Source of the DNA: Candidatus Eremiobacterota bacterium
Lineage (GTDB): Bacteria > Vulcanimicrobiota > Vulcanimicrobiia > Vulcanimicrobiales > Vulcanimicrobiaceae
Direction: 5' to 3'
DNA length: 64,000 bases
NCBI GenBank assembly: GCA_019235885.1
Contig: JAFAKB010000049.1
Span: 1 to 64,000 of the forward strand
Shown here: positions 15,023 through 57,617 of the stretch, in pieces
How positions within the stretch are numbered: position 1 is the stretch's first letter
Layout of the letters: every line of letters begins with the position of its first letter
The notes under the pieces: generated by a model
What the model saw: only the letters and a program-made list of their open reading frames with translations
The model's database searches: none
Told to the model about the DNA's origin: nothing
Translations under genes and position numbers: made by a program

Positions 15023-15085
15023 GGGGGACGAGCTGGCCGTTTCGTGTCACCGCCCGGCCTACCATCCTACGCAGCCGGCACGCAG

Positions 15086-15142
15086 CTAAGGAATTAGTTG
15101 ACAGCCGCACGGCACTCGAGTATCCTGCTACTAATTTCTTAG
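15086..15142 (+). promoter_or_regulatory. blaI-1 promoter with paired BlaI-type operators
   Basis: A strong sigma-70 promoter is visible: TTGACA (15098-15103), 17-bp spacer, TATCCT (15121-15126). It is bracketed by two matching 12-bp dyads of the form CTAA-N4-TTAG: one at 15086-15097 touching the -35, the other at 15131-15142 over the predicted start site. The two 13-bp arms match at 12 positions in inverted orientation. Paired AT-rich dyads flanking the promoter are the classic layout for autorepression by BlaI/MecI, here with a different core from the known TACA/TGTA operator. Confidence 0.8.
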
Positions 15143-15164
15143 CAGCTTGCCCCGGAGGACCCAC

Positions 15165-15551
15165 GTGGCCCGTCGCCGCACGCATGGTTTGACCGACGCG
15201 GAGCTTCGGCTCATGGAGGTTCTCTGGCGAGACGGACCGGCGAAGGTGAGCGACGTCGTGGACGCGCTCCCGCCGCCGGCGCTCTCGTACAGCAGCGTGC
15301 TGACGACGCTGCGCATCCTCGAGCGCAAGGGCTACGTCGCGCACGAGCAGCTCGACCGCGCGTATCTCTACCGTGCGGTGGTGGCGCGCGAAGCCGCCGC
15401 GGAAACCGCGGTCGGCCACCTCGTGAACCGCTTCTTCTCCGACTCGCCGGTCGAGCTCGCGCTGCAGCTCGTCGAGCGCGACCGCCCCTCCGAGGACGAG
15501 CTGCAGCGGCTCAGAGCGCTGATCGAACGCTACGAGGAGGATGCGTCATGA
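15165..15551 (+). CDS. BlaI/MecI family winged-helix repressor
   Basis: 128 residues. The start is the GTG at 15165 because GGAGGA lies at 15154-15159, five bases upstream; a TTG at 15147 is in frame but has no such site. The winged helix (LTDAELRLMEVLWRDGP, then LSYSSVLTTLRILERKGYV) and the C-terminal dimerisation helix (FFSDSPVELALQLVE) follow the BlaI pattern. In known systems BlaI is cleaved after the partner M56 protease senses a ligand. That partner gene follows with a four-base overlap (ATGA), and paired dyads flank the promoter, so autoregulation is likely. Confidence 0.9.
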   Translation: MARRRTHGLTDAELRLMEVLWRDGPAKVSDVVDALPPPALSYSSVLTTLRILERKGYVAHEQLDRAYLYRAVVAREAAAETAVGHLVNRFFSDSPVELALQLVERDRPSEDELQRLRALIERYEEDAS

Positions 15552-17716
15552 CGCCGTTCGTTCCGGCCGGGATCGAGTCGCCGGCGCTCGCCGTCGTCGC
15601 GTACATCGTCGACAGCGCGTGGGAAGCAGTGGCGATCGTCGCGCTCGCGGCGCTGGTGATCCGGCTGTTCAAGCGCGCCAACGCGACGACGCGCTACGCC
15701 GTCTGGTACATCGCGCTGCTCGCCGTCATCGTGCTGCCGGCGGTGACGGTGGCCGCGATGTTGCTCGCGCCGCACGCGCTCGCGCAAGGACCGCGAATCG
15801 CGCTGCCGCACGCCGTGACGCTGATCGCCGCGGCGCTGTGGGGCGTCGGCGCGCTGGCCGGGCTGCTACGGATCGCGGTGGGCTACGCCGCGCTCGCGAA
15901 GCTTCAGCGCGACGCGCTTCCGCTGCCGCCCGGCTACCGCGAGGCGATGCCGCTGTGGGAAGAGTCGATCGGGCGCGGCCGCGAGACGCGGCTGTGCGTT
16001 TCCTCGAACGTCGCGGTGCCGGTCGCGGTCGGCCTCTTCGACGGCATGATCTTGATGCCCGACCACCTGCTCGAAAGCTTCGACCGCGCCGACGTCGACC
16101 GCTTCAGCCTGCACGAGATGGCGCACTTGCAGCGCCGCGACGACTGGACGTGCGCGCTCGAGCGGATCGCGTGCGCGGTGCTCTTCTTCAACCCCGCCGT
16201 GCGCTGGATCGCGCGCCAGCTCGACCTCGAGCGCGAGGTCGCGTGCGACGACTGGGTCGTCGCGCAGACGCGCGAGGTGCGCCCGTACGCGGTCGGGCTC
16301 ACGAAGATGGCCGAGGCGACGAAGTGGCCGCACCGAGCGGTTCCGACCCCGGCAATCTTCGCCTCGCGCAAGAGCATCTCGATTCGCATCGAGCGGCTGC
16401 TGAACAAGCACCGCGACGTGCGCCCCACGCTGACCGGCGGCCCCGCCGTCGCGTGCGGCGCGGCGATCCTAGCCGCCTCGGCGGTGCTGCTCTCCGTCGC
16501 GCCGGTGATCGGCAGCGTCAACACGGCGGCCGCGCCGCTGGAGGTGGGCAAAGCGCAGCCCGGACCAGCGATGCGAAGAAAGCAGCCGGTGAAGCCGCCT
16601 GCGCTCGCGCACGCAAAGTGGCCGGCTCGCGTGGCGGTCGATTCGGGGCTCGCGGGGAGGACGCGGCATCCGCTCGAGACGGTGAACGCGCAGGTCTCCG
16701 CCAATACGCAGGTCTCCGCCGCCAATGCGCAGGTCGCCGCCTCCAACGCGCGCGTGGCCGCCGCGCGCCGGGACGTCACAGCGTCCACCGCGCGCATTGC
16801 GGCCGCGAACGCGCATCTCAAGAGACAGCTGAAAACGTCGAGCGCGGTGCTCGCGACGTCGAATGGATTCGTCGTGACCTCGAACGGACAAGTTGCGAGG
16901 TCGAACGCCGACGTCGCCGCGGCGAACGCGCTCGTCGCGGCAGCGAACGGGCGGCTGAAGACGACTACCCTCACGATCGACACGGCGCATCATCACGCCA
17001 TGATGATCCCGCCCTTGAACGGCACGGCCGAGCTCGAAGTGTTGCAGCACCGGCTCATGCAGTCGCAGCATGCCGTCGAGCTGCAAAGCGTCGCGCCGCT
17101 TCCGCGGGAGCGGCTGATGGCCGTTTCCGGGCAGCTCGCACAAGTGATGGCGCAGGCGGCGCCGCAGCCGCATCCGCAGCCGAGACGCGCGGACTATCTC
17201 GACGCGCTCTCGGCCGCCGGCTACGCGAACCTCAGTGCCGACGACATGATCGCGCTGCACGACAACGGCGTAAGCGGCAGCTTGATCGTCGCGTCGGCGC
17301 GCTACTTCAACCCGCGGCCGAGCGTGAAGGAGCTCATCGCGCTCTCTACCTCCGGCGTGTCGGGAACCTACATCGAGGAGCTCAGCCGATACGGCTTGCG
17401 CGCCGGGCCGAGCGACGTCCGCGCATACACGCTGAACGGCGTCTCGGCGCCGTACGCGGCGATCGTGCTGCACGCCTATCCGATGCTGGGCACGTCCTCG
17501 GTGATCCAGCTCATGCAGAACGGCGTTCCCTCGCGGCTCGTCGCCGGGCTGCGCGAGCGCGGCTATGCGCCGACGCTCTCGGAGATCGTGGAGCTTGCGC
17601 AGCACGGCGTCTCGCTCGAGTACGTCGACGCGGTGAACGCGCATCGCGGCGCGCGGATGAGCCTGCCGGAGATCGTCAAGCTCCACGACCACGGGGTGAG
17701 CGCCGATGCGAGCTAA
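15548..17716 (+). CDS. BlaR1-like M56 membrane zinc protease with coiled-coil and HGV-repeat sensor region
   Basis: 722 residues. Predicted membrane helices lie at about 15-38, 50-75 and 85-108. The cytosolic M56 domain has HEMAHLQRRDDW (His189, Glu190, His193), and a fourth helix is at about 297-318. Instead of a penicillin-binding sensor, the C-terminal half has an alanine-rich heptad region (units like VAASNAR/VAAANAL, about 375-475). It is followed by about six ~26-residue repeats with the pattern Y..LS..D/E.I.L...GVS...I (about 555-722). The gene overlaps blaI upstream and the next repeat-protein gene downstream by 11 bp. The repeats match those of that protein, so the sensor probably reads a self-like protein partner; this is inference. 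Confidence 0.85.
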   Translation: MTPFVPAGIESPALAVVAYIVDSAWEAVAIVALAALVIRLFKRANATTRYAVWYIALLAVIVLPAVTVAAMLLAPHALAQGPRIALPHAVTLIAAALWGVGALAGLLRIAVGYAALAKLQRDALPLPPGYREAMPLWEESIGRGRETRLCVSSNVAVPVAVGLFDGMILMPDHLLESFDRADVDRFSLHEMAHLQRRDDWTCALERIACAVLFFNPAVRWIARQLDLEREVACDDWVVAQTREVRPYAVGLTKMAEATKWPHRAVPTPAIFASRKSISIRIERLLNKHRDVRPTLTGGPAVACGAAILAASAVLLSVAPVIGSVNTAAAPLEVGKAQPGPAMRRKQPVKPPALAHAKWPARVAVDSGLAGRTRHPLETVNAQVSANTQVSAANAQVAASNARVAAARRDVTASTARIAAANAHLKRQLKTSSAVLATSNGFVVTSNGQVARSNADVAAANALVAAANGRLKTTTLTIDTAHHHAMMIPPLNGTAELEVLQHRLMQSQHAVELQSVAPLPRERLMAVSGQLAQVMAQAAPQPHPQPRRADYLDALSAAGYANLSADDMIALHDNGVSGSLIVASARYFNPRPSVKELIALSTSGVSGTYIEELSRYGLRAGPSDVRAYTLNGVSAPYAAIVLHAYPMLGTSSVIQLMQNGVPSRLVAGLRERGYAPTLSEIVELAQHGVSLEYVDAVNAHRGARMSLPEIVKLHDHGVSADAS

Positions 17717-18761
17717 AAGCGCGCGGACGACAGCGACCGCGCTGGCGCTCGGCCTCGTCCTGGCCGCGCTCGCGCCGTCGCAGCCTGCCGCGGCGCACGA
17801 AACCGTTCGCGAGTGGTCGCTGACCGCCCGCGACGCCACCGCGGTCAACCTGCGCATCGTCTTCGAGACGTACGAACCGAACGGCTCCCACCGCGTCGAC
17901 ATGAACACGAGCGCGGTGCCGTACGCGACGATCCGCGGCCTGACCGCGGCCGACGTCGCGGCGCCGACGGCCGAGAAGCGGTTCGAGATCGCTGAAGATT
18001 CCGGCACGCTGGCGTTCAGCGGTGTCGTCGGAAACGGTCGCGGCAAGGGCACGTACGACTTTACGAGCGATCCCGCGTTTCAGCGCGCGCTCGCCCACCA
18101 CGGGATGCGACCGGCGACGGACGTGGAGGGTCTGGAGCTGGCGCTGCACCACTTCAAAGCCTCGACGCTCGACGACGTCGTCACGAGCGGCGTCCAGGCG
18201 CCCACACCGGCCGATCTGGTCACCATGACCGACCACGGCGTCGGCGCCGAGTACCTGCGCGGCTTCAAGGGCGTCGCGCTCGTTCCGAAGACCGCTGCCG
18301 CGCTCGCGCAGCTCCGCGATCACGGTGTGACGCCGGACTACGTGCAGGCGTTCTCGAATGCCGGCTACCGCCCGATCTCGGTCGCCGAGCTGTCGCTCGC
18401 GCGCGACCACGGCGTCGACGCGAAACAGGCGTACGAGATCCGCGCCGCGATGCCGTCTCTCTCAATGAGCGACTTGGCGACGCTGCGCGATCACGGCGTG
18501 AAGCCGAGCCTAGTCCAAGCGCTGGCGCACTCGAGCTACCGCGACCTGCGCGTGAGCGACATCGCGACGCTGGCCGATCACGGCGTCTCGGGACAGTACG
18601 TCACCGACATGAGCAGCCTCGGTTACCATCCGCCAGCGAGCGATCTCGCGCTGTTGCACGATCACGGCGTCTCGACGACGTTCATCCAGCGGTTGCGCAG
18701 CCACGGCTACGGCGCGATGAGCACCGCCGACATCATCAAACTCTACGAGCACGGTATCTAG
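17706..18761 (+). CDS. Secreted HGV-type repeat protein, partner of the M56 sensor
   Basis: 351 residues. It starts at the ATG at 17706, overlapping the M56 stop by 11 bp. The signal peptide has the core ALALGLVLAALAPSQPAAA. Residues ~32-105 form a non-repeat beta-rich domain (WSLTARDATAVNLRIVFETYE). From about 110 to the end there are eight to nine repeats of ~26 residues, with cores such as DLVTMTDHGVGAEYL, DLATLRDHGVKPSLV and DIATLADHGVSGQYV. These are the same repeats as in the C terminus of the upstream M56 protease. Similar DHGV repeats occur downstream of BlaI/M56 pairs in other bacteria from memory; function unknown. Likely periplasmic. Confidence 0.8.
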   Translation: MRAKSARTTATALALGLVLAALAPSQPAAAHETVREWSLTARDATAVNLRIVFETYEPNGSHRVDMNTSAVPYATIRGLTAADVAAPTAEKRFEIAEDSGTLAFSGVVGNGRGKGTYDFTSDPAFQRALAHHGMRPATDVEGLELALHHFKASTLDDVVTSGVQAPTPADLVTMTDHGVGAEYLRGFKGVALVPKTAAALAQLRDHGVTPDYVQAFSNAGYRPISVAELSLARDHGVDAKQAYEIRAAMPSLSMSDLATLRDHGVKPSLVQALAHSSYRDLRVSDIATLADHGVSGQYVTDMSSLGYHPPASDLALLHDHGVSTTFIQRLRSHGYGAMSTADIIKLYEHGI

Positions 18762-53362: not shown

Positions 53363-53746
53363 ATGCCCCGCAAGAAGTCGCCGACCCTCACCGAGGCGGA
53401 GTACCGCCTCATGCAGGTCCTTTGGGACCGCGGTGAGTCGAGCGTCGCCGAAGTCGTCGATGCGATCGGCGATCCGCCGCTCGCGTACAACACCGTCCTC
53501 ACCACGATGCGCATCCTCGAGCAGAAAGGCTACGTCCGCCACAAAGCGGCCGGCCGCGCCTTCATCTACAAAGCCGTCGTCGCGCGCGACGAAGCGCAGC
53601 GCAGCGTGGTCACCCACGTGCTCTCCCGGTTCTTCGACGGCTCGCCGCGCGAGCTGGTGCTGAACCTGCTCGAATCCGAAGCCGTCGACGACACCGAGCT
53701 CGACCGGCTGCGGGAGCTCCTCGACAAGGCCAAAGGCCAGCAGTAA
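53363..53746 (+). CDS. BlaI/MecI family winged-helix repressor
   Basis: 127 residues. The layout is the same as the blaI at 15 kb: LTEAEYRLMQVLWDRGESS, LAYNTVLTTMRILEQKGYV, and the C-terminal FFDGSPRELVLNLLE. The TAA stop is immediately followed by the ATG of the M56 gene with no spacer. It likely represses this operon and is relieved by the M56 protease. Confidence 0.9.
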   Translation: MPRKKSPTLTEAEYRLMQVLWDRGESSVAEVVDAIGDPPLAYNTVLTTMRILEQKGYVRHKAAGRAFIYKAVVARDEAQRSVVTHVLSRFFDGSPRELVLNLLESEAVDDTELDRLRELLDKAKGQQ

Positions 53747-55972
53747 ATGCTCGAGGCGGTCGTCGGCGTCGCGCTTCGCGCGATTCTCGCGAGCGTCGTC
53801 TTGGGCGGAGTGCTCGGCGCGCTGGTGCTCATCGCCACGCGCGCGCTCGCACTCACCGCCGCGACCCGGCACGCGCTGTGGACGACCGCGCTCCTCGCGA
53901 CCGCCTTGATGCCGCTGGCCGGCGTCGGCGTCAGCGTCGCGAGAGCGTACGCCGCACCCCAGCTTGTCGCCACCGCGCCCGAGACGGTGAAGGTCGTACG
54001 GGCCCCGCTCTCGGACATCGGTACGAAATCCCGAACGGCGCACGATTCTTCTGCGCTCGCTCAGCCGCCTGAACCGAAATCGCCGGCGCAGACGCCGGCG
54101 AGCTCGCCGCGCTCCGACGCGTCGCATTCCTTTGCGTCCTCACTGCGCGACCGGTTCACGTTCGCGGGGTGGACGCCGCGCGTGACGCGGAATCTCGCCG
54201 CCGGCGTGGTCGGCGTATGGCTGCTCGGCGCGCTGATCGGATTGTTCGGGTTGGCCGCGAGCATCCTGCGTGTGCGCGGCCTCAAGCGGCGCTCGAGCCC
54301 ACTCGACGGAACGCTCGCCGACGAGCTCCCGTGGCTGACCGCGCCGAACGCGGCGCGCGAGATCTACCTGCGCCTGTCTTACGAGACCGAGACGCCGGTG
54401 GCGATCGGCTTCCGCCGGCCGGTGATCCTGATTCCGACCGAGCTTGCGACGGCCGAAGGGCTCGCCGCGATCGAGTCGCTCGTGCTGCACGAGTACGCGC
54501 ACTTGGCGCGCCACGACGACTGGACGAACCTCGTGCAGCGCACGATCGAGCGGATCTTCTGGTTCAACCCGGTGGTGTGGCTGGTCGGGCGCCGGATCGC
54601 GCTCGAGCGCGAGATCGCCTCCGACGACGCGGTCGTCGAGAAGACCGGCGAGCCGCACGCCTACGCGACCTCGCTGTGGCGGCTCGCGCGCGAGATGCGC
54701 ATGCCCGAGCACGCCGTCGTCGCGCCGGGCGCGCTGCTGACCCGCAAGCAGATCACCGTGCGCATCGAGCAGCTGCTCGACAAGAAGCGCGCGCGGCTGC
54801 ACCGCTCGCCGGCGACCGCGCTCGGCGTCGCGCTCGCCGCGCTGCTCGCCGTCGGTTTCGTCGCGACGAGCGCGCCGGCGATCGAGCTTCCGCGCGCCGA
54901 ATCGCCGCTCGCAACGTCGAACGCGGCAGCAGTGCCGGCGGCCCATACGACGGCGGCGCGCCGCGTCGTGGCGTGGCACGAGACGACGCACGTCACCACG
55001 CCGGCCGGTGCCGCGAAAGCGATTGCCGCCCAGCACGCGAACGCTGGCACGACCGCGCCCGAAACGACGACCGTGAAGACGGAGCACACGATCGTTCGGT
55101 ACCAGAGCGCTCAGTCGAAGCCGGTCGTGAACGAGCGGATCGTCTACCTGCACGACAGACAGAACTCCAAGACCGTGCCGGCGCCGCCGGCCGACTCGGT
55201 TCCGGTCCCGCCGGCTCCGCCGGCTCCGCCGGGCGCCCCCGCCGTGCCGCCGGTTCCCGGGTTCGGTCCCGACATCGCGAAAACGATCAGCGCGGCGATG
55301 GCGGCGGTACCGCGCGAGATCGCTCAGGAGACCGGAGCCCCGCGCAAGCGGCACGCGAAGTACGACGGCTCGAAGGTCACCCGCGAGATCGTCGCCTCGT
55401 GCCTCGGCTGCTCGTTCCGCGGCAGCGACGCGCGCGGCGTGGACCTGCACGGCTTGAAGATCGTCGGCGACGACTTCAGCGACGCCGACCTGCGCGGCGC
55501 GAACCTCTCCGGCGCACGGCTCGCCGGCGTCTCGCTGGCGCGGGCGAAGCTCGCCGACGCGAACTTGCGCGGCGCGGCGTTCGCCGGCGTCGACCTCGAG
55601 GGCACCGAGCTCGACGGCGCACTGCTCGACAACGTCACGATGGCGGGCATCTCGATGCAGCACGTCGCGCTGCGCGGCGTCGGTCTGCGGAACATCATGG
55701 CGAAGTGCACGGGCTGCGACTTCTCCCGCATGGACTTGCACGGTGAAGACCTGCGCGGCATCGTGCTGAACGGCGCGGACCTGAGCCACAGCGACCTGCA
55801 CGGCGCGAACCTCAGCGGCGTGCGCTTCAACGGTGTCGACCTCTCGCACGCCGATCTGAGCGGCGCCGACCTCACCAACGCGCAGTTCGCCGGCTGCGAC
55901 CTGAGCACGACGAACCTGCACAACGCGCGCATCACCGGGATGACGATGCAGGGAAGCTCGCTCGGCGAATGA
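53747..55972 (+). CDS. BlaR1-like M56 membrane zinc protease with pentapeptide-repeat C-terminal module
   Basis: 741 residues. Membrane helices lie at about 8-28, 36-60 and 150-172. The zinc site is LHEYAHLARHDDW (His248, Glu249, His252), and another helix is at about 365-383 (ALGVALAALLAVGFVATSAPA). A Pro/Ala-rich linker (PPAPPAPPGAPAVPPVPG, about 490-505) follows. The C-terminal ~190 residues are pentapeptide repeats (ADLRGANLSGARLAG, ADLSHSDLHGANLSG), twice interrupted by CxGC motifs (SCLGCSFRG, KCTGCDFSR). The module would lie in the periplasm. The same CxGC-plus-pentapeptide design occurs in the two secreted proteins that follow. Confidence 0.85.
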   Translation: MLEAVVGVALRAILASVVLGGVLGALVLIATRALALTAATRHALWTTALLATALMPLAGVGVSVARAYAAPQLVATAPETVKVVRAPLSDIGTKSRTAHDSSALAQPPEPKSPAQTPASSPRSDASHSFASSLRDRFTFAGWTPRVTRNLAAGVVGVWLLGALIGLFGLAASILRVRGLKRRSSPLDGTLADELPWLTAPNAAREIYLRLSYETETPVAIGFRRPVILIPTELATAEGLAAIESLVLHEYAHLARHDDWTNLVQRTIERIFWFNPVVWLVGRRIALEREIASDDAVVEKTGEPHAYATSLWRLAREMRMPEHAVVAPGALLTRKQITVRIEQLLDKKRARLHRSPATALGVALAALLAVGFVATSAPAIELPRAESPLATSNAAAVPAAHTTAARRVVAWHETTHVTTPAGAAKAIAAQHANAGTTAPETTTVKTEHTIVRYQSAQSKPVVNERIVYLHDRQNSKTVPAPPADSVPVPPAPPAPPGAPAVPPVPGFGPDIAKTISAAMAAVPREIAQETGAPRKRHAKYDGSKVTREIVASCLGCSFRGSDARGVDLHGLKIVGDDFSDADLRGANLSGARLAGVSLARAKLADANLRGAAFAGVDLEGTELDGALLDNVTMAGISMQHVALRGVGLRNIMAKCTGCDFSRMDLHGEDLRGIVLNGADLSHSDLHGANLSGVRFNGVDLSHADLSGADLTNAQFAGCDLSTTNLHNARITGMTMQGSSLGE

Positions 55973-55987: not shown

Positions 55988-56015
55988 TTGGCCGCTACAC
56001 TTATTTCATTAGTTA
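55988..56015 (+). promoter_or_regulatory. Candidate internal promoter/BlaI-like site before the first pentapeptide gene
   Basis: TTGGCC (55988-55993) with a 16-bp spacer to TAGTTA (56010-56015) is a weak promoter. ACTTATTTCATTAGT (55999-56013) across it resembles the CTAA-N4-TTAG operators of blaI-1 (shared ends CTTA/TTAG). If real, BlaI could control the secreted proteins independently. Confidence 0.3.
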
Positions 56016-56039
56016 CAAAATCTGCCCAAGGAGGCTGCC

Positions 56040-56906
56040 GTGATCCGTTCCCTCGTCCTCGCCGCGCTCGCGCTGCTCGTCTGCGCGGCGGCGATACCCG
56101 CCCGGGCGCAAGACACGCTTTCGCGCGAGCTCATCGACGCGTGCGTCGGCTGCCGCTTGCCGCACGACTTGCACGGGCGCGACTTGCACGGTTTGCGCTT
56201 CGTCGGCACCGACTTGCGCGATGTCGACTTTTCGCACGCGAACTTGAGCGGCGCGCAGTTCACCGGCGCGAACCTCGACGGTACGCGCTTCGACGACGCC
56301 GACCTGCGCAACGCGCGATTCGTGGGCGTGCGGCTGGGACGCGCCTCGTTCGCGCGCGCGAACACCGACGGGGTGAGCTTCGTCGGCGCGAAGGTGACGC
56401 AGGCGGCGCTCGACGGCACGCTCGGCCGCGTCATCATCCGCAACTGCACCGGCTGCGCGCTGCAAGGTCTCGACCTGCACGGCGCCGACCTGCGCGGGAT
56501 CAAGGTCGTCGGCGCGAACCTGAGCGATGCGAACTTCGCCGGCGCGCGGCTCAACGACGCGCAGCTGATCGGCGTCCGCGCCCACGACGCCGATTTCTCG
56601 CGCGCCGACCTGCACGGCGCGAACCTCTTCGGCGCCTCGCTGCGCGGCACGAAGCTCGCCGGCGCCGCGATCGGCGACGCGGTGCTGTGCAGCGAAGCGC
56701 GCGACTACTACCCGTCCGGCACCACCGAGCACCGCACGATCTGTGCCGACCTGCGCGGCGTCGACCTGCGCGGGCTCGACTTTCGCGCCGCGCGGTGGTG
56801 CAGCAACGACGATGAAGCGCGCCCGCGCACCTGCCGCACCGTCACCCGCCAAGAGCTGATCGACATCGCTCACGCCGACCTCACCGGCGCGCAAGCGCCC
56901 GCCTAA
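56040..56906 (+). CDS. Secreted pentapeptide-repeat protein with CxGC motifs, first copy
   Basis: 288 residues. The start is the GTG at 56040 with AAGGAGG five bases upstream. The signal peptide is SLVLAALALLVCAAAIPARA. The mature protein starts LSRELIDACVGCRLPHDLHGRDLHG and runs in pentapeptide repeats (DLRDVDFSHANLSGAQFTGANLDG), with a second motif IRNCTGCALQGLDLHGADL midway. Further cysteines are near the end (VLCSEARDYYP, ARWCSNDD, RPRTCR). The repeat would fold as a right-handed beta-helix. Same design as the C-terminal module of the M56 protease upstream. Confidence 0.85.
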   Translation: MIRSLVLAALALLVCAAAIPARAQDTLSRELIDACVGCRLPHDLHGRDLHGLRFVGTDLRDVDFSHANLSGAQFTGANLDGTRFDDADLRNARFVGVRLGRASFARANTDGVSFVGAKVTQAALDGTLGRVIIRNCTGCALQGLDLHGADLRGIKVVGANLSDANFAGARLNDAQLIGVRAHDADFSRADLHGANLFGASLRGTKLAGAAIGDAVLCSEARDYYPSGTTEHRTICADLRGVDLRGLDFRAARWCSNDDEARPRTCRTVTRQELIDIAHADLTGAQAPA

Positions 56907-56921
56907 GGAGAATTGCACCAC

Positions 56922-57617
56922 ATGCTTCGACCGATCGCTCTCGGGCTCGCCGCGCTCGCGCTGACGCTCGCCGTTCCCGCAGCGCCGGCGGGCGCCGAGG
57001 ACAACCTCGTCCGCCAGCTCGTCAACGCGTGCACCGGCTGCCGCTTCCCGCACGACCTGCGCGGGCGCGACCTGCACGGCCTGCACTTCGTCGGCGCCGA
57101 CCTGCGCGACGTCGACCTCTCGCGCGCCAACTTGAACGGCGCGGCCTTCGTCGGCGCGGACCTGGAGAACGCGCGCTTCGACGACGCCGACCTGCGCAAC
57201 ACGCGCTTCACCGGCGTGCGCTTCGCCAACACCTCGTTCGCGCGCGCCAAGCTCGAGAACGTCACGATGGAAGGCGTGCGGCTCGGGCCGGGCGCGATCG
57301 TCGGCGCCGACTGGACGAGCTTCGTGCGCCGCTGCGTCGGCTGCGACCTGAGCGGAAGGGCGAGCATCCCACGCCGCTATCGCACGTACGCCGATGTCGA
57401 ACAGCGCCTGCGCGAGCTCGCGCTGCACCCGCCGACGATTCCGCCGGACGTGATGCGCCGGCTGCACGAGCTGGAGCTGCACCCGCCGGCGGTTCCGCCG
57501 CTGCCGCCGCTTCCCGACTGGTTCGATTCGACGCCGCCCGCGCCGCCCGCGCCGCCCGCGCCGCCTGCGCCGCCGCCCGCACCCCCGGTACCACCGGCGC
57601 CGCCGGCATCACCGTAA
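56922..57617 (+). CDS. Secreted pentapeptide-repeat protein with CxGC motifs and proline-rich tail, second copy
   Basis: 231 residues from the ATG at 56922; a TTG at 56913 is in frame but sits too close to AAGGAG. The signal peptide is PIALGLAALALTLAVPAAPAGA. The mature start LVRQLVNACTGCRFPHDLRGRDLHG is nearly identical in design to the first copy, followed by fewer repeats and a second VRRCVGCDLSG. The tail has two near-repeats (ELALHPPTIPPDVMRRLHE / ELHPPAVPP) and ends in PPAPPAPPAPP. A tandem duplication with a changed tail. A strong terminator follows. Confidence 0.83.
   Translation: MLRPIALGLAALALTLAVPAAPAGAEDNLVRQLVNACTGCRFPHDLRGRDLHGLHFVGADLRDVDLSRANLNGAAFVGADLENARFDDADLRNTRFTGVRFANTSFARAKLENVTMEGVRLGPGAIVGADWTSFVRRCVGCDLSGRASIPRRYRTYADVEQRLRELALHPPTIPPDVMRRLHELELHPPAVPPLPPLPDWFDSTPPAPPAPPAPPAPPPAPPVPPAPPASP

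Follow-up and report, generated by a model that had tools for sequence, protein, structure and literature searches.

The window analyzed here is a stretch of 64,000 nucleotides (nt) from Candidatus Eremiobacterota bacterium (GenBank assembly GCA_019235885.1, contig JAFAKB010000049.1, positions 1 to 64,000 of the forward strand), and our subject is an operon of three overlapping genes at 15165-18761, on the plus strand like the window's other genes and the promoter elements described below. The first gene (15165..15551, with a GTG start) encodes a BlaI/MecI-type repressor (PF03965, E 1e-28). It overlaps, through ATGA, the gene for an M56/BlaR1-type membrane metalloprotease with a repeat ectodomain (15548..17716; PF05569, E 3e-25), which in turn shares 11 nt with the gene for a signal-peptide protein (17706..18761). 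A preliminary description, made from the sequence alone, had read these genes as a BlaI-M56 operon with an overlapping secreted gene, and this reading stands: the adjoining repressor, the zinc protease, and the BlaR1-like membrane core make it an operon of the BlaI-M56 (BlaR1) type. We find that the repeat class of such a sensor predicts the repeat class of its neighbor, and that this holds for two unrelated folds.

The M56 protein carries an HExxH motif in which H189, E190, and H193 are invariant. Its full-length AlphaFold2 model (mean pLDDT 76.6) combines a confident membrane and protease core, a low-confidence linker, and a confident solenoid, and its best matches in the Protein Data Bank (PDB) are S. 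aureus BlaR1 (8exr_A: 187 columns, TMt 0.63, rmsd 3.3). In agreement with the earlier claim of a BlaR1-like protease lacking the beta-lactam sensor, residues 320-722 match no transpeptidase family, and the C terminus shows no beta-lactam sensor or other family in Pfam or NCBIfam; the NCBIfam BlaR1 model scores 58.7 bits on this protein, far under its cut-off of 400. The heptad region noted earlier is also present: a linker of heptad-like NAxVAA units (16670..16970, read directly) spans about residues 375-475 and is modeled as helical at low confidence. These heptads recall Lpp-like coiled coils. Repeat reading, profiles, and the model all place six alpha-alpha hairpins of 28-29 residues each in the sensor ectodomain (17186..17713; M56 residues 547-714, pLDDT mostly >92 over 551-710), with cores at DNGV 573, TSGV 602, LNGV 630, QNGV 658, QHGV 686, and DHGV 715. 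The preliminary description thus had the number of repeats right, but not their period, which it put at ~26 residues.

The secreted partner consists of a signal peptide, a beta domain, and eight hairpins (AlphaFold2 pLDDT 95.6 and pTM 0.84 for the mature chain). The beta domain (17796..18080) is ~95 residues long, with six strands in AlphaFold2 at 3-91 of the mature chain and conserved W7, G48, G70, G76, and G85. The repeat solenoid that follows (18081..18758; repeat reading, profiles, and AlphaFold2) has the same period of 28-29 residues as the sensor. Where eight to nine repeats had been counted before, we read seven cores clearly (177-349) and two more in degenerate form, and AlphaFold2 folds them into eight hairpins. 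The suggestion that sensor and partner carry the same repeats is borne out: the window's own pair match each other in phmmer (E 1e-14), and profiles built from 24 secreted-type proteins, of which three are fusions, and 18 sensor ectodomains align in hhalign with probability 100 (E 9e-64). The sensor ectodomain is not a recent copy of its own partner, which is the top match in only two out of 27 cases; sensor repeats and partner repeats are separate old lineages. A correlation between sensor and partner similarity (Mantel r 0.78) is expected from shared ancestry and was not used as evidence.

Neither the secreted partner as a whole nor the window's repeats and beta domain match any family in Pfam or NCBIfam, and the Pfam matches among relatives are few, weak, and scattered. 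A fold search of the PDB with the partner returned nothing below E 0.001, and VIA-align gave only middling matches to TALE and mTERF proteins. Superhelices of the TAL-effector-like and mTERF kinds do bear a weak structural and profile similarity to the solenoid (Z about 5, which is not evidence of kinship), but they have a period of 33-35 residues rather than 28-29 and belong to DNA/RNA binding proteins in cells. We rejected an assignment to the TAL-effector-like repeats, which are 33-35 residues long and carry a base-reading diresidue. Searches of open-access text turned up no description of a repeat of this type or of the sensor-partner pairing. The repeat and the beta domain apparently form an undescribed, unnamed, and widespread family.

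Below, helical hairpin repeats are given the class label HGV and pentapeptide repeats the label PENTA. A scan of genome contigs for the window's secreted protein gave no matches. Repeat loci were chosen with a generic repeat query that we wrote by hand, and this gave 28 loci. They come from Eremiobacterota, Acidobacteriota, Corallococcus, Sphingomonas, Marinimicrobia, and others, and most contain two adjoining repeat genes, one for an M56 protein, located after BlaI, and one for a secreted beta+repeat protein. A sample blind to the C termini was drawn from the window's phylum: 80 M56 genes picked by M56 family alone, to which the window's genome was added. A beta+repeat neighbor is found for 16 of the 18 repeat-bearing sensors in this sample and for none of the 66 others (P = 2e-15, Fisher's test, uncorrected for kinship); in one of the 16, L055, a frameshift separates the M56 part from its repeats. 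Conversely, among 21 beta domains in the phylum, 19 directly follow a repeat sensor, another is fused, and the last stands alone. Over all loci we count 31 HGV-HGV pairs and 31 PENTA-PENTA pairs, 62 matched pairs in total, and no cross pairs. The two computational checks proposed in the preliminary description, profile comparison of the repeats and co-occurrence across genomes, were both passed, with co-occurrence well above chance. Apparent frameshifts between protease and repeats break the M56-HGV genes of L055, L029, and L036.

The PENTA class is represented in the window by a second operon, which serves as a comparison system. It comprises a BlaI gene (53363..53746), an M56 gene whose product has a pentapeptide-repeat C terminus (53747..55972; PF05569, E 3e-33, and PF00805, E 4e-35), and genes for two secreted pentapeptide-repeat proteins, one with a CVGC start (56041..56906; E 5e-36 to its own sensor) and one with a CTGC start (56923..57617; E 1e-24). 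PENTA sensors are the commonest class in the phylum, and 31 out of 44 have a secreted pentapeptide neighbor. The stretch before the first secreted gene (56003-56040) holds a box, CTTATTTCATTAGTTAC, with similar boxes in four loci of the same genus (L071, L066, L049, and L054); it is possibly a second BlaI site. At another locus (L032:4816-6477), a single protein combines HGV-like repeats with pentapeptide repeats and a SHOCT-like domain.

On a tree of M56 cores the HGV label changes at least five times and the PENTA label at least three times. The window's M56 core clusters with short-tail M56 proteins of the same genus that have no repeat partner, within a pentapeptide-rich clade; at the loci of the nearest cores (L052, L068, and L098), a TonB-receptor-like gene lies directly 3′ of the short-tailed M56 gene, as judged by eye. 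The partner shifts together with the sensor in about four out of four independent contrasts and never in the opposite direction (P = 0.125, sign test), and kinship is thereby partly controlled. The beta domain and repeats are also found fused to M56, at 15 loci in 14 genomes, one of them in the window's phylum (L238). Among the matches listed, and at the threshold used, the genomes with fused forms have no separate beta domain, although a copy could have been missed. These fusions offer a Rosetta-stone argument that the secreted protein and the sensor would work together, and it is from class matching and fusion that we argue that the two may act as one device.

The operon is preceded by a sigma70-like promoter, TTGACA-17-TATCCT (15098..15126), with an operator-like dyad on either side, both of the form CTACTAA-N4-TTAGTAG; the promoter and dyad 1 were read directly from the sequence. 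Dyad 1, CAGCTAAGGAATTAGTTG (15083..15100), overlaps the -35 box, and dyad 2, CTACTAATTTCTTAGCAG (15128..15145), lies just 3′ of the -10 box and is one of the genome's two best matches to CTACTAAN4TTAGTAG. Across 83 BlaI upstream regions of the phylum, TTAGTT occurs in 49% and TAGTTG in 70%, as against 1% and 5% of random stretches from the same loci; TTGACA is present in 73% versus 5% of controls. The motif suggests that BlaI may autoregulate the operon. A genome-wide search for a BlaI regulon gave 12 matches to the operator pattern versus 43 to the reversed control, and we therefore make no regulon claim. One near-perfect operator-like dyad (G000:C70:34421-34438, L197) lies upstream of a possible secreted protein, a candidate distant BlaI target that is not enriched over the control. 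The genome has four BlaI-M56 loci, three of them within about 93 kb of one contig (G000:C49, at ~15, 54, and 108 kb), and the third of these (L009, ~108 kb) is another HGV system.

BlaR1 has a class-D beta-lactamase-like sensor and induces a beta-lactamase (PMC7593790). The window's operon shares with BlaI-BlaR1 and MecI-MecR1 the BlaI-family repressor, the BlaR1-like M56 core, a promoter flanked by operator-like dyads, and an extracellular C-terminal sensor. It differs in that its ectodomain is an alpha-alpha solenoid, with no transpeptidase or beta-lactamase-like sensor family detected, and in that it encodes a repeat-matched secreted protein where the beta-lactamase would be.

How might such a pair operate? 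We tentatively favor, at a little less than even confidence, a reading in which the M56 ectodomain has the secreted beta+repeat protein as its co-sensor or homeostat, and BlaI provides the output. The M56 protein would be placed in the inner membrane, the zinc domain facing inward and the repeat solenoid outward, and the secreted protein, made from the same translationally overlapping operon, would be its soluble co-sensor. We infer that the partner docks on the sensor through the common solenoid type, either directly or along a shared surface. It would report the state of the envelope, probably using its beta domain to read a ligand or surface, and would hold the sensor in one state. Envelope trouble that removes, damages, or occupies the partner would then switch the protease; the protease would cut or inactivate BlaI, the operon would be induced, and the partner would be refilled, closing a homeostatic loop. 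Somewhat more guardedly still, we propose a general design rule for a branch of M56 signaling: to read a secreted protein, the sensor may use a copy of the repeat fold which that protein itself has. The fold would be interchangeable (helical hairpins or a pentapeptide beta-helix), and the subunit that does the reading could be secreted or fused.

Several observations weigh against the co-sensor reading. Two repeat sensors of the window's own phylum (L088 and L091) have no adjoining partner. M56 sensors with HEAT-, head-GIN-, kelch-, or TonB-C-like or short tails (classes assigned by eye except where Pfam matched) have no matching neighbor, and therefore the pairing rule is not universal; M56 ectodomains of the head-GIN-like, HEAT, and kelch-like kinds are seen by eye at L078, L090, L099, and L057. 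The four contrasts on the tree are by themselves too few for significance, kinship inflates the co-occurrence counts, and a single recombination can move the sensor tail together with the partner gene that adjoins it. Stand-alone beta+repeat proteins occur in the phyla of G124 (Acidobacteriota) and G121 (Gemmatimonadota), and 18 genomes with such proteins show no repeat-bearing M56, so that the protein has a role of its own. The earlier proposal that the sensor's ligand is a protein with a matching repeat is accordingly upheld in part: class matching in 62 pairs, with the partner next door or fused, speaks for it, but the unmatched ectodomains and the beta+repeat proteins in genomes that show no repeat-bearing M56 speak against its strict form. 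Three stand-alone beta+HGV genes (L182, L188, and L192) lie at or near ECF sigma-type genes, the sigma gene of L188 itself lying past the contig end. L182 and L188 also have DUF4097 (toastrack) proteins, and L182 a HEAT-bearing protein.

A somewhat doubtful but serious alternative is that sensor and partner never touch and that one envelope component or outside ligand is bound by both repeat domains. In this case the secreted protein would be a BlaI-controlled effector and the sensor would carry its relative, just as BlaR1 has a class-D beta-lactamase-like sensor and a beta-lactamase as the induced product; this is the classical BlaR1 logic (PMC7593790). Recognition of a shared ligand is also allowed by the sequences, since the two sets of repeats are separate lineages. 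The beta+repeat proteins without M56 fit it as well, and the PENTA partner in the window's genus is preceded by a box of its own, which would be expected of an output gene. But a scheme of sensor plus effector does not predict M56-beta-repeat fusions that lack a separate effector copy among the matches listed, and the sensors of split systems have no beta domain. We consider it unlikely that linkage alone accounts for the pairs, the solenoids being generic envelope modules for oligomerization or wall binding that hitch-hike as one DNA block with the M56 3′ end and the next gene. Adjacency does ease joint transfer, and the independent switches are few (four pairs); two unrelated repeat folds with zero cross pairs and the alternation of fusion and splitting nevertheless exceed what adjacency predicts, and other M56 ectodomains drag no matching neighbors with them. 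That the partner is instead a substrate or agonist, whose intact or cleaved form rather than its loss activates the protease, shares the same anatomy of a secreted, co-expressed, homologous protein but is very improbable, since a self-induced agonist makes a runaway loop and the precedents of YjbI and ExoR are inhibitory.

Those precedents show that secreted repeat or helical proteins can run loops of the co-sensor kind with other sensors. In Caulobacter, YjbI silences two stress pathways and is lost on stress, then replenished (PMC12864828). The YjbI (PerA)-UzcSR/ChvGI system resembles the window's in having a secreted repeat protein, with conserved Cys pairs as in the second operon, and the two would also share negative control of envelope stress signaling with a replenishing loop. 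It acts through two-component systems, with no M56 or BlaI described (PMC12864828), and HGV repeats are a different fold; text matches to BlaI in that paper apparently come from an author called Blair. ExoR inhibits ChvG by binding to it (PMC12864828), and the rhizobial pair is similar in that a small, soluble, helical periplasmic protein restrains a membrane sensor. Here, however, the sensor is a histidine kinase, and the source does not state a shared repeat family. Stress loci of the ECF sigma/DUF4097/LiaF-like kinds have stand-alone beta+HGV proteins in their operons (L182 and L188) but no M56 or BlaI.

The preliminary observation is therefore confirmed, and proves broader than the preliminary description could show, while its interpretation is partly supported. 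The system is a variant of BlaI-M56 signaling whose repeat and beta domain appear to be undescribed, and such matching is seen across many phyla. The BlaR1-type sensors are familiar mainly from beta-lactam resistance, and the majority of M56 proteins carry ectodomains of other kinds. Each of two unrelated ectodomain folds is accompanied here by a secreted protein that shares it, and one of the two alternates between separate and fused forms. This offers a concrete, testable proposal that what such a sensor reads is either its secreted partner or the partner's target. The pairing links M56 sensors to envelope homeostasis loops such as those of YjbI and ExoR, and suggests a part for the secreted protein in the sensor's reading of the cell envelope.

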